Below the pieces are notes generated by a model, which was not told the origin of the DNA, did no database searches, and was given only the letters and a program-made list of their open reading frames with translations. Made by a program: the position numbers and the translations under genes. Positions 10,328 to 33,545 of a stretch of 64,000 bases of DNA are shown here, one piece after another (the stretch's first letter is position 1; each line of letters opens with the position of its first letter). The stretch covers positions 124,001 through 188,000 of the forward strand of contig JAJYFL010000005.1 of the NCBI GenBank assembly GCA_021790935.1. Reading direction: 5' to 3'. The stretch is from a bacterium. Lineage in GTDB: Bacteria > Vulcanimicrobiota > Vulcanimicrobiia > Vulcanimicrobiales > Vulcanimicrobiaceae.

Positions 10328-10369
10328 GCCGATGGTGTGATTAGCCAGACCGATACCGTCCCCTCTTGG

Positions 10370-10398
10370 TTGCTAACACTTATTGTTTTCGCTATACT
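10370..10398 (+). promoter_or_regulatory. Strong sigma70-type promoter with operator of the Xre-RES module
   Basis: TTGCTA (10370-10375), a 17-base spacer and TATACT (10393-10398). The spacer holds the inverted repeat AACA-CTTAT-TGTT (10375-10387), a plausible operator. The predicted transcript start (about 10405) falls on the GTG start of the antitoxin. Confidence 0.65.
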
Positions 10399-10404
10399 GG
10401 AACG

Positions 10405-10797
10405 GTGAAGACGATGGACTGGACCCTCTCCCTCCCTCAGCTCGAAAAGCTGCGCAAGCCCCAGGCGTTGACCGATACCCACCCGCTGCTCTTGCAGCTC
10501 ATCGACAGCTTTGGGTCCAATGCCGTCGCGCGGCTGGTTGATGTCAAACCTGCCACCGTGACCAACTGGAGGCAGCGCAAGCGCTCGCTGGAGGGACAAT
10601 ACGCGCGCCGCGTGACGGACCTGCATTACGTCCTCAGCCGCGCGTTTCAGACCTTCCAGCCGGAGACCGCGATGCGCTGGTTGATCAGCAACGACCCATT
10701 CTTAGACGGACAACGCCCGCTCGACGTACTCGTCCTGCAAGGACCATCACGATTGATCGCCGCCCTTGACGCGCATGAGGCCGGCGCGTATCCGTGA
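10405..10797 (+). CDS. Antitoxin, Xre / MbcA-ParS (DUF2384) family
   Basis: Partner of the RES toxin that follows. About 130 residues. The N-terminal half is a helix-turn-helix-like segment (FGSNAVARLVDVKPATVTNWRQ), and the C-terminus carries the toxin-binding DUF2384 pattern (RWLISNDPFLDGQRPLDVL) seen in Xre-MbcA-ParS antitoxins. The GTG at 10405 matches the predicted transcript start; an ATG nine bases on is the alternative. The stop overlaps the toxin GTG by four bases (GTGA). Confidence 0.85.
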   Translation: MKTMDWTLSLPQLEKLRKPQALTDTHPLLLQLIDSFGSNAVARLVDVKPATVTNWRQRKRSLEGQYARRVTDLHYVLSRAFQTFQPETAMRWLISNDPFLDGQRPLDVLVLQGPSRLIAALDAHEAGAYP

Positions 10798-11375
10798 ACC
10801 TCTATCGGATATTTCCCTATGACCCCAGCGCCGCCGATACCGATGACGGCGGCGCTCTTTACGTTCCACCACCCTCCCCTTCGGGCCGCATCGCCAACGT
10901 CGGATTGTACCGCGAGCTTTATTTTGCCGCGCAGCCCGAAAGCGCCGTAGCCGAGGTCTTCGGGTTCCTGCTCGCGTGGTACCCTGCAGATTTCGTCCAT
11001 GCCGGCGGAAGGCCGTACGCCGTCAGTAGTTACGAGTTCGATGATGCAAGCCCGATTTTTGACTTGAATGACACCGCGGCGCTCGCGAAGATTGGCATCG
11101 AGCAACCATCGCACGTCGTCACCAAGGACCGCAACGTTTCGCAGAACTGGGCGCGAACGATCTTTGGCCTCGGTGCGTACCACGGCGCGTCATGGTGGAG
11201 TTACTACTACCCGGATTGGACCGTGTACGGGCTCTGGGACTTTAGCTCATTGCGACATATTGGTTCGCCCGAGATTCTCACGCCATCGCATCCGGCCGTG
11301 ATTATCGCGGCAAGGACCATCGTCCGGCAGACCCATCCCCGCGCGGCAATGCCACGCCGACGACGAAGATCCTAA
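10794..11375 (+). CDS. RES-domain toxin (NAD+-degrading family)
   Basis: 193-residue RES toxin. Characterised RES toxins deplete NAD+ and are neutralised by Xre-type antitoxins. Family residues are present: the early Arg (LYRIFPYD), NVGLYRELYFA with the central Glu (AVAEVF), and the later aromatic/serine region HGASWWSYYYPDW. The C-terminus ends in a strongly basic tail (RRRRRS), which is unusual. It starts on a GTG overlapping the antitoxin stop. The module looks intact and is convergent with the rmlD-like gene. Confidence 0.85.
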   Translation: MNLYRIFPYDPSAADTDDGGALYVPPPSPSGRIANVGLYRELYFAAQPESAVAEVFGFLLAWYPADFVHAGGRPYAVSSYEFDDASPIFDLNDTAALAKIGIEQPSHVVTKDRNVSQNWARTIFGLGAYHGASWWSYYYPDWTVYGLWDFSSLRHIGSPEILTPSHPAVIIAARTIVRQTHPRAAMPRRRRRS

Positions 11376-27508: not shown

Positions 27509-28174
27509 TCACTCTATCGCGCTGAATCCGCGTAAATCGCCACCATCCCATTCTAATCGCAGTTCGCTTTCGATGCTTAGAGAATCAATAATGCTGGGCC
27601 GAAATATCGCGACGCATCGAAAGCCATCACGGCGAACTGAATCGTACAACAAACCGTGTGCTCCTCCATTGCGCGCGTCGCGCGCTAACGCATTAGCAGC
27701 GTCGTAACGCACGGGATCTGGATCGTACACGTCGGCCGGTACTTGGTCGCGCCGTGCATTGAGAAGCGGCGCGGCTAGACGTGCGCTAATGACGCGCAAC
27801 GCCAAATCGTAGCGCTGCCCTTTAGATTGCGAGAGCCAGCGCACGAGATGAAAACGCTTTCCATGGTATGCTGTCGCAGCGTTGTCGGCAGCGTACCAGG
27901 CTCCAAAGGTTGCGTCGTTAAAGCGTGCGCGGAATGGACGCAAGAACGGCAGCATGGCCAGGCTCGCGTACGGCCCGTGATATTGGTCGCTTTCCGGCAT
28001 CGCTTGAATCTGGCCGAGGGCTTGGCGTGCGACATTGTCGGTCAACGCAAGCACTGAAAGCGCGCCGCCGATGTCGGTTTCCGGCTCGTCGAGCAACTCA
28101 ACGAGGAACTCGATACGCCGGTCCGCCATTCCCGCGATGCGATACACGGGATCGCTGTACGTTAATTCAGTCAC
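27509..28174 (-). CDS. RES-domain toxin
   Basis: 221 residues from GTG 28174. Strong RES pattern: RPFRARFNDATFGAWYAADN then ATAYHGKRFHLVRWL, LNARRDQVPADVYDPDPVRYD, and GAHGLLYDSVRRDGFRCVAIFRP. Arg, Tyr, Glu/Ser positions expected for NAD+ cleavage seem present. Its antitoxin lies just upstream but appears N-terminally truncated, so how this toxin is tolerated is a question. Confidence 0.85.
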   Translation of the reverse strand: MTELTYSDPVYRIAGMADRRIEFLVELLDEPETDIGGALSVLALTDNVARQALGQIQAMPESDQYHGPYASLAMLPFLRPFRARFNDATFGAWYAADNAATAYHGKRFHLVRWLSQSKGQRYDLALRVISARLAAPLLNARRDQVPADVYDPDPVRYDAANALARDARNGGAHGLLYDSVRRDGFRCVAIFRPSIIDSLSIESELRLEWDGGDLRGFSAIE

Positions 28175-30942: not shown

Positions 30943-30961
30943 CTCTTACTCCTTCCAACAA

Positions 30962-30982
30962 AGTATATCATATGGATATACT
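30962..30982 (-). promoter_or_regulatory. Promoter/operator of mazEF
   Basis: Inverted repeat AGTATATC-N5-GATATACT (30962-30982). Its inner arm supplies the minus-strand -10 box TATACT (30967-30962), with TTCACG as -35 at 30990-30985, 17 bases away. The transcript would have a leader of about 13 bases with the GGAAGGAG site. Confidence 0.65.
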
Positions 30983-31439
30983 CTCGTGAACTCCGGGAAA
31001 CACGCCCACCAACGGGACTGCAGACCGGTGCCAAAGGACGATCCGCTCGAAACGGCCGGCAAGGCTTTCTCGAGAGCCGAGTCCCAAGTGCAGCGCAGAG
31101 GACACCGTCGCGGCGATCTGCACGGCGAGCCTGCGGCGAAGGCGGTCCCATTCGCCCTTGAGGCGGGTCGCCCAGCCCTGCAAGACGTGGGCCTCGTCGA
31201 GCAGTGCGACGGCGCGCCCGCCGGCTTTTGCGCAACACTCGGCTCGAGCCCACGGGCGCTCCCAAGAACCCGGCAACGACGCTTCTGGACCGTCCGGCCG
31301 CAACATAGATGGCCACGCTCCCCAGCTTTTCAGCGAGCTCGAGGAGCAGCGTGGTCTCGCCGACCTAGCGTGGACCGGCGAGGAGCTTGACGCGCGACGC
31401 TGCAAGCTCGGTACGTGGCGCGGAACTCTTGCGAAGAGA
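30983..31439 (-). pseudogene. AAA-type ATPase (DUF4143-linked family) ruin
   Basis: Minus-strand reading gives VKLLAGPR-stop-VGETTLLLELAEKLG, a P-loop in which GPRQVGKTTLL has Gln changed to TAG (31367-31365) and the Walker Lys changed to Glu. After a frameshift it continues ALLDEAHVLQGWATRLKGEW and SALHLGLGSRESLAGRFERI, the Walker B and sensor text of these ATPases. The C-terminal DUF4143 part is gone, replaced by the mazE promoter. Confidence 0.8.
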
Positions 31440-31480
31440 TAGTTGACTAATTATTCGACTATAGCTGCAAGCCCGCACTG
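31420..31480. repeat. 61-bp dispersed repeat, copy 2
   Basis: Matches 25075-25135. On the minus strand it runs from TTGCAGCTATAG through GTCGAATAATTAGTCAAC into the first codons of the ATPase ruin, so it probably held that gene's promoter (TTGCAG / TATAGT-like boxes). The start codon seen as ATG in copy 1 is altered here. Confidence 0.7.
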
Positions 31481-31619
31481 CCGCCAGGATGGGCTGCTCG
31501 CGCAATTCGCCGGCTTTCGGGGCGGTGCCGCAGGCGTCCGCACGGCGGCCGGAAGAGCGGCGGGATTCTGCCGCCCACGCTTACGATTATTCGGCGTCCT
31601 CGCCTCTGGCTGACGCCGC

Positions 31620-31825
31620 TGCATCGTGCCGAATGGACGGAGGCGATCGCGCAGCACGTCCTTCACCGTGGGAACAGGTCGATCTGCCCGACATCGCCTT
31701 CCAAACATGCGTCCACCTCGCTCGCCGGCACGTCTCCCCGCTCGGCATCCGTACCCTGGACACGGCCCACGCTTGACGAGCGCCAATCAAAGGTCGTCGA
31801 GGCGGCAGGGCTGAAGAGCGTGTAG
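31620..31825 (+). pseudogene. PIN-domain toxin remnant with internal deletion (FDERQSKL repeat, copy 3)
   Basis: The plus frame reads WEQVDLPDIAFQTCVHLARR then HVSPLGIRTLDTAHA, the middle of a VapC (LGxRTLDxLHVA), stops at TGA 31774-31776, and continues one base out of phase as LDERQSKVVEAAGLKSV with TAG at 31823. About 15 codons between HVA and TFDERQ are deleted. The N-terminal metal-binding Asp region is not recognisable. It explains the origin of the other two stubs. Confidence 0.75.
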
Positions 31826-31892
31826 CCGTACTGTCAAGGCGCTTCCGGGAGCTTTCCCGAGGACTGGGGCACTAGAAAATTGGAGGTTCTCC

Positions 31893-33545
31893 GTGGCGGA
31901 CGAACGTGCTAATTTCTGGCTCAATTTCTGGCTCGATCTTCAGCATCCGGCGGGTTGGTTCCAAGGGATCGTAATTCTCGTCGTCGTGGACTTGTTCGGA
32001 AGGTGGCTCCTCCCCGAGCTGTTTAGGTACGGGGGGTGGCTGTACGCTGTAATCGCAGTCGCGACGATAGCCATTTGGTTTATTGCGCGAGCGTTCAACC
32101 TCGACCTTTGGTTGCGCTATCGAATTTGGATTCCACGCGTCTATCCGGCCATCCGGCCGCTACTTCAGCGACTGCGCGTTATTCGCGTTCAGCCCGATAC
32201 GAATCAACTTATTAAGGACTCGTATCGAGATATTTCAAAGAATGGGATCCTGTATCCGACATTTGTTCGTAGACGAGATTTGCGCCGTTCCTGGTGGCCG
32301 CATCGTGTATTCCAGATCGTTCTGCTTGACAACCCGCAGCAATGGGTTATTAAGTGCCACGACGATAGCTGGCAGCTCAAGGTGGACATTACGGAGAGCC
32401 ACTACGGCGTTTACAACAACCGCGGGAAAAAAACTCTTGATGAACTTTTCGTTAGCCACATGAAGAAGGACGCCAAGAAGCTGCCACAACTGAAGGAACT
32501 TCTCGCACATTCGCAAGCTATCCACGATCACCTCATGGGCGACCCGACCGCGGCTGAAAAGGCGGGCGATGAATTCCTGGGTGGTATGGCTCTGCCACTG
32601 CGCTGGGCGTCCGGCGGCGTGTTGCCGATCGTTCGCCATGACCAACGTAATTGGGTGCAACTTTTTTTTCGTGACATCAAGCCCATAGGATGGAATGTCG
32701 GCAATGGAGCCTCAGAGTCGGAAGCGGAGTATCGAACTCAGCTCGGACGACTGTTGACCCGTGAGTTTTGCGAAGAAGTGCTCTTGGTTTCAGGGGGGCC
32801 GGCGAATGGGCTCTTGCATCATATGTTCGAAGCCGATGATGCGGCCTCGCGTGACTACTGGAGTCCGGAGTTTTGGCGACGCCAGGTTGCTCGAAGGCAA
32901 GAAGACGATAACGTAGTTATTCGCCCGTCGGGCGAAAGGCGCCACGCAACAGAAGGAAACGGCGGAATGGCGGTAGAGGTCGTTGACCGCCACGCCTGGA
33001 GATCAACCCCCAGTCGATTCAATAACGTCTTCTTCTCGGTCAATCCATGCGAGCTCGGCGTCGAAATCATTACGCTCCGCCGATTCCGATGCGGCAACGA
33101 GGAGTGGATTTTAGACGGAGAACTGCATGAGGACGGCTATCTCGTGCGGAGGCCAGCCATTCTCCTCGACTTGGAGTATCTCCGCGAGCAATTCAGGCGC
33201 ATTCCAAGGTTGGGGGCACATATCGAAGATGACATGGAGCGGCTTGACTGCAAAATGCTTGACGAGATTCCCGCCGGCGTGTTCAAGATTTTTACTCAGG
33301 ATATCGCGCTACGTCACGCACGGCGCCGCCGCATTGCCGATCTCCTGAGATCTACGCGCTCGACAAAGATGCGGGGAGTGCTTGAGGGCGAACTGACGTT
33401 CATCGACAAATGGCTCTACGTCTACGAAAAGCGGTTCGTCGAAGCAGCTAAGAGCGGCGCCACAGTAGCGGACGAACATCTGCGTTCGCTGTGCCCGGTG
33501 ACTTGGAAAACCCTCGAGCTGGCGTTCCGGCATGGCGGGCTATAG
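31893..33545 (+). CDS. Membrane-anchored protein with Nudix-like box, unknown function
   Basis: 550 residues from GTG 31893, six bases after GGAGG. Two transmembrane helices lie near residues 23-43 and 47-66. Residues about 235-300 resemble a Nudix hydrolase: GGVLPIVRHDQRNWVQLFF then GNGASESEAEY and LTREFCEEV, where R290, E291, E294 and E295 match the REUxEE core. Later text (WILDGELHEDGYLVRRPAILL) also suits such a fold. Base composition is visibly less GC-rich than in neighbours, suggesting transfer. Its place at the edge of a TA region hints at defence or nucleotide-signal processing, but no partner is adjacent. Confidence 0.7.
   Translation: MADERANFWLNFWLDLQHPAGWFQGIVILVVVDLFGRWLLPELFRYGGWLYAVIAVATIAIWFIARAFNLDLWLRYRIWIPRVYPAIRPLLQRLRVIRVQPDTNQLIKDSYRDISKNGILYPTFVRRRDLRRSWWPHRVFQIVLLDNPQQWVIKCHDDSWQLKVDITESHYGVYNNRGKKTLDELFVSHMKKDAKKLPQLKELLAHSQAIHDHLMGDPTAAEKAGDEFLGGMALPLRWASGGVLPIVRHDQRNWVQLFFRDIKPIGWNVGNGASESEAEYRTQLGRLLTREFCEEVLLVSGGPANGLLHHMFEADDAASRDYWSPEFWRRQVARRQEDDNVVIRPSGERRHATEGNGGMAVEVVDRHAWRSTPSRFNNVFFSVNPCELGVEIITLRRFRCGNEEWILDGELHEDGYLVRRPAILLDLEYLREQFRRIPRLGAHIEDDMERLDCKMLDEIPAGVFKIFTQDIALRHARRRRIADLLRSTRSTKMRGVLEGELTFIDKWLYVYEKRFVEAAKSGATVADEHLRSLCPVTWKTLELAFRHGGL

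Follow-up and report, generated by a model that had tools for sequence, protein, structure and literature searches.

A predicted membrane-anchored protein with a divergent Nudix-like domain that its relatives carry behind PNP and TIR domains

The studied gene encodes a protein of 550 residues in which two predicted transmembrane (TM) helices are followed by a long C-terminal region that, judged from sequence profiles, is very probably Nudix-related. The same region occurs in three further proteins, behind a PNP domain in one of them and behind TIR domains in the other two. We consider it probable that the protein is an effector with a regulatory Nudix-like domain, and we lean, with less assurance, towards a membrane-anchored single-gene conflict effector that is composed of two modules and may work as a ligand-gated membrane hairpin.

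The gene and its surroundings

The gene is located in a window of 64,000 nucleotides, i.e. the whole stretch of bacterial DNA that was analysed, and the features discussed below are listed in Table 1. Translation starts at a GTG codon, and the GC content at the three codon positions (0.63/0.40/0.63) is much alike in each fifth of the gene. Since this pattern is steady in every fifth, the gene is judged to be coding along its whole length, and together with the GGAGG motif ahead of the start codon it indicates that the gene is real and intact. Reading frame, ribosome-binding site and codon-position GC agree on the 550-residue protein proposed in the first-pass annotation. The same annotation described the gene as lower in GC than its surroundings, which is correct in relation to the toxin-antitoxin genes on one side (about 55% versus 62-65%) but not in relation to the glycan cluster on the other, where the GC content is similar (55-60%). 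Two hydrophobic stretches bear out the pair of N-terminal membrane helices that had been claimed, and an arginine-rich stretch directly after them suggests that the remainder of the protein is cytosolic.

Table 1. Positions of the studied gene, its sequence features and its homologues (positions of the homologues refer to their own loci)
Feature	Position	Strand	Basis or size
Studied gene, 550 aa, two TM helices and Nudix-like C-terminal domain	31893..33545	+	ORF, codon-position GC, TM scan
Ribosome-binding site GGAGG, 6 bases 5' of GTG	31882..31886	+	Sequence reading
Predicted TM helix 1, about residues 20-44	31950..32024	+	Kyte-Doolittle scan
Predicted TM helix 2, about residues 46-68	32028..32096	+	Kyte-Doolittle scan
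Shared domain, residues 162-548, also behind PNP and TIR domains	32376..33536	+	phmmer, alignment A2
Nudix core, residues 235-300, PLRWASGGVLPIV...LFFRDIKPIGWNVGNGAS...REFCEEV	32595..32792	+	A2 invariant columns, hhalign
Invariant R290-E291-x-x-E294-E295, corresponding to the metal-binding REUXEE of Nudix proteins	32760..32777	+	
Second conserved block, residues 385-421, P.E.G....LDGE...LVR.P	33045..33155	+	A2 invariant columns
Homologue L171	9980-12490		836 aa
Homologue L172	8657-10684		675 aa
Homologue L173	9492-11513		673 aa

On one side the gene is bordered by a toxin-antitoxin cluster with RES, PIN, FitA, DUF2442, Phd/YefM and MazE members, which finishes towards the gene in the remnant of an AAA_14 ATPase. 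On the other side lie genes for UDP-sugar enzymes, a convergent one for an epimerase/dehydratase and one for a UDP-glucose dehydrogenase. The gene is alone on its strand. The window offers no operon partner for it, and, as far as the window is annotated, its immediate neighbours include no identified gene of a mobile element or a defence system. When 106 kb of the contig were searched by tblastn with four CD-NTase queries and with MoxR, vWA, TIR and PNP queries no match was obtained, in line with the earlier description of a single gene lacking an adjacent cyclase.

Many genes of PIN, MazE and Phd type are found at about 19-31 kb of the window. A RES-domain gene, with a Pfam E of 1e-19, occupies 27509-28174, and what is likely an Xre-RES pair was recognised by eye at 10366-11375. 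The AAA_14-type remnant (30968-31405, minus strand, Pfam E 2e-5) lies at the end of the toxin-antitoxin cluster, within a segment (about 30943-31890) where no intact gene is clearly discernible. In most genes of the glycan cluster (36154-58154) the third-position GC is about 0.60-0.72, and in many genes near the window ends it is 0.85-0.90; the lower values suggest that the glycan cluster is an acquired island, which may include the studied gene.

A domain with exchangeable N-terminal partners

At a threshold of E<=5, searches of Pfam, PADLOC, NCBIfam, PHROGs and the PDB with the window protein alone were negative. Three relatives were found, in 3 of the 326 genomes of a single phylum (that of G150, probably Myxococcota); phmmer gave E 1e-36 for L171, 2e-21 for L172 and 2e-16 for L173. 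No relative was present in 149 genomes of the protein's own phylum, nor in 398, 296, 159 and 156 genomes of four further phyla (those of G153, G149, G151 and G154), which are probably Pseudomonadota, Actinomycetota, Acidobacteriota and Cyanobacteriota; altogether, about 1,150 genomes outside the 326-genome phylum yielded none. Likewise, tblastn at E 0.01 returned nothing when the window protein and the domain of the PNP homologue were run against plasmids and phages, or the L173 domain against plasmids, and neither the IMG/VR viral contigs nor 85,000 genomes, scanned for exact peptides, contained a relative. The occurrence of the family is thus patchy, with four known proteins, the window protein included.

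A number of candidates were rejected. The hits of hand-made DNA patterns for the box were all due to chance, to phage proteins or to unrelated frames, the weak genome matches L090, L091, L109, L110 and L168 were antisense, stop-containing, hydrophobic or of low complexity, and L169 and L170 were dropped as relatives on account of internal stops.

The three homologues align only to the C-terminal part of the window protein, over some 390 residues, and their N-termini are of other kinds. L171 begins with a PNP_UDP_1 domain (E 2e-12), which PADLOC calls a CBASS 'PN-superfamily' effector (E 3e-13), and L172 and L173 begin with a small conserved domain followed by TIR_2 (E 3e-5 and 3e-6). The TM pair is seen in the window protein only, being absent from the N-termini of the three homologues. 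One and the same domain is accordingly fused to three types of known effector domain (2TM, PNP and TIR) in four proteins. For the shared domain itself there was no Pfam match at E<=10 in any of the four proteins and no PADLOC or NCBIfam match covering it, and PADLOC recognises neither the window protein nor the TIR homologues. The name 'EAD1' for the N-terminus of the TIR homologues was discarded, as it was a resemblance noted by eye, with no Pfam match.

A CbbQ-type MoxR ATPase and a large vWA protein are encoded within about 2 kb of both TIR homologues (L172:3290-6795 and L173:12989-16430), the genes in between being different. Between the two loci the identity is 79% for MoxR, 52% for vWA and 42% for the TIR-Nudix protein. 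MoxR/vWA pairs have housekeeping roles too, and the proximity at these two loci is suggestive of a possible conflict-system core, or else of chance synteny. No operon partner was recognised within about 10 kb of the PNP homologue, and no CD-NTase next to the homologues. The defence role suggested in the first-pass annotation is in this way favoured indirectly, because in the relatives this domain is fused either to a PNP effector or to a TIR domain, but no tie to a cyclase was found.

Relationship to Nudix proteins

In the alignment of the window protein and its three homologues (A2) the invariant positions include R237-W238, R260-D-I-x-P-x-G-W267, G272-A273, R290-E291-x-x-E294-E295, L407-D-G-E410 and L417-V-R-x-P421; RExxEE, RDIxPxGW and GA are thereby kept among proteins that are 25-30% identical. 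The motif reads R260-D-I-K-P-I-G-W267-N-V-G-N-G272-A-S ... R290-E-F-C-E-E295 in the window protein. In 200,000 shuffles of this protein RE..EE by itself arose in 1.5%, and W..[GP].G and RE..EE together in just 0.01%, so that the motif is beyond what chance would give. The metal-binding REUXEE core of the Nudix box is present in 4/4 proteins, with R290, E291, E294 and E295. The complete consensus GX5EX7REUXEEXGU is absent from the window protein, GX5E is not conserved in A2, and the spacing is longer: W and RE are 23 residues apart, compared with 19 in MutT. Calling the REFCEEV region an atypical Nudix box was consequently apt, the motif being there in a non-canonical form that does not keep the GX5EX7RE spacing.

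To represent canonical Nudix proteins a profile was made of 30 PF00293 proteins from related genomes. Aligned to it by hhalign, A2 scored 33.1 (P 5e-4), with the two in register all the way from the first strand up to and including RExxEE, while 120 column-shuffled A2 controls covering the whole family scored at most 22.1. With the four-protein core block the probability was 77, P 2e-5 and the score 34.2 (<=23.2 in 200 column shuffles); the reversed alignment scored 15.7. The match was stable when each member was left out (P 1e-4 to 4e-3), and the three homologues without the window protein scored 36.8 (P 1e-4), again in register. Because the profile of the relatives aligns in register even with the window protein left out, the Nudix assignment holds as that of a divergent form; it is also supported by RExxEE and the residues around it, which stay unchanged in the three relatives. 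The window sequence alone gave no signal against canonical Nudix, and since the single-sequence tests were negative the case is built on the homologue profile. Hmmscan returned no Nudix match for the shared domain, and AlphaFold2 run from single sequence, without an alignment, gave pLDDT values of 38 and 32. Nitroreductases, which appeared as PDB profile matches to the shared domain at E 0.04 and worse, were taken as noise.

It is improbable that the shared domain has another fold and that RExxEE and the profile signal result from convergence. Such an explanation would account for the missing Pfam matches of all four domains, for a PDB profile search that yields noise only and for the silence of the window sequence alone, but it is hard to reconcile with an in-register match that withstands leaving out any member and lies far above the shuffled and reversed controls.

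Proposed role and comparison with known systems

The Nudix-like domain is taken to be the input part of the protein because it is constant, while the variable part is each time a known type of killing or shut-down module. Ligand sensing is its most likely job, and catalysis is the main rival. As a sensor, the domain would bind a nucleotide-type ligand, either a second messenger or a metabolite altered by phage, via the retained R-E-x-x-E-E metal site. Binding would cause the two-helix part to assemble and make the inner membrane permeable, the mode of action proposed for 2TM effectors of CBASS. That ligand-gated membrane disruption of this kind is directed against phage is a tentative reading.

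The domain could instead be catalytic, in which case the helices would merely locate an active Nudix enzyme at the membrane, where it hydrolyses a nucleoside-diphosphate derivative (e.g. a NAD-, ADP-ribose- or sugar-nucleotide) and acts as antidote or as nucleotide-depleting effector. The invariant RExxEE in 4/4 proteins suggests a retained Mg2+ site, the TIR domains of L172 and L173 could yield products of ADP-ribose type, and the window gene adjoins UDP-sugar enzymes. Nevertheless, we find a tethered enzyme rather unlikely, given that the box lacks a conserved GX5E, that PNP and 2TM partners have no Nudix substrate in common with TIR, and that the homologues are without recognisable glycan genes alongside.

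With sensing as the preferred function, the shared domain may, as a possibility at somewhat less than even weight, represent a previously undescribed Nudix-derived sensor module of about 390 residues that serves as common trigger for a membrane hairpin, PNP or TIR without a CBASS cyclase, and with it a new single-gene or MoxR/vWA-linked class of immune protein. Domains that sense a signal and are found next to varying killing modules, such as SAVED, Sa_NUDIX and STING, have been key to the discovery of new immune signalling pathways. The shared domain swaps partners as known sensor domains do, no family library searched contains it, and its putative metal site can be recognised, so that a direct search for its ligand is feasible.

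Canonical Nudix hydrolases (PF00293) have the beta-R.....GW...G...RE..EE core of the shared domain in register, but the latter differs by an altered box spacing, an unconserved GX5E and large extra N- and C-terminal regions.

The precedent for a 2TM-NUDIX architecture is Cap16, a TM effector of CBASS (PMC10419184). Like the window protein, Cap16 and other 2TM-NUDIX CBASS effectors have two N-terminal TM helices and then a cytosolic Nudix-type domain with REFxEE, and both are predicted to be membrane-damaging. Cap16-like proteins are, however, about 270-310 aa long compared with 550 aa, and most of their genes are near a CD-NTase, whereas none is near the window gene. In a comparison set of six 2TM-Sa_NUDIX proteins from plasmids an annotated CD-NTase-type gene is immediately upstream in 4/6 loci, and a CBASS cyclase is part of the gene run in a fifth; L160 has no CD-NTase gene in its listing, although its locus is matched by a CD-NTase query. 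These six (L159-L164), beside or near CD-NTases, are from plasmids of Enterococcus, Mammaliicoccus, lactobacilli and Hymenobacter, and several are annotated just as 'hypothetical' or 'HU-CCDC81 and SPOR domain-containing protein'.

The SMODS-associated Nudix family, which the first-pass annotation had named for an HMM check, did not prove to be the home of the window protein. It has no match to Sa_NUDIX (PF18167), its domain matches canonical Nudix better, and the homologue-only profile scored 15.2 against the Cap16 profile, which is the level of the controls. Membership was rejected as a weak signal from the REFxEE stretch that is gone once the window protein is left out. These results, and the absence of a CD-NTase match in 106 kb of contig and of a recognised CD-NTase beside the homologues, leave little probability for an orphan CBASS-type effector, i.e. 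a diverged Cap16 with its cyclase elsewhere or lost, in spite of the local REFxEE similarity and of a 2TM and Nudix layout as in Cap16, whose fetched members mostly adjoin a CD-NTase (PMC10419184). The window protein may work like Cap16, yet it is not filed as a member of that family.

A patatin-Sa_NUDIX protein (L002) in genome G137, of the same phylum as the window, is likewise a fusion of an effector and a Nudix-type domain, but its domain is a true Sa_NUDIX (E 2e-58) that is not detectably homologous, and its effector is unrelated. The gene for this patatin-like phospholipase fusion is at L002:1498-3024 on the minus strand, and its start is overlapped by a small gene, SEC-C-like by eye.

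The closest parallels for the modules of the homologues are systems with PNP and TIR effectors. Detocs uses a PNP effector (PMC11249213), and NTP-dependent conflict systems with a MoxR/vWA-type core deploy TIR, PNPase and 2TM SLATT parts (PMC7159879). The shared C-terminal module is not among the sensors annotated for CBASS, Detocs or NTP-dependent conflict systems and is in no family library searched, but its homologues carry exactly such PNP and TIR modules, and the TM, PNP and TIR effector types are all established or proposed in bacterial immunity.
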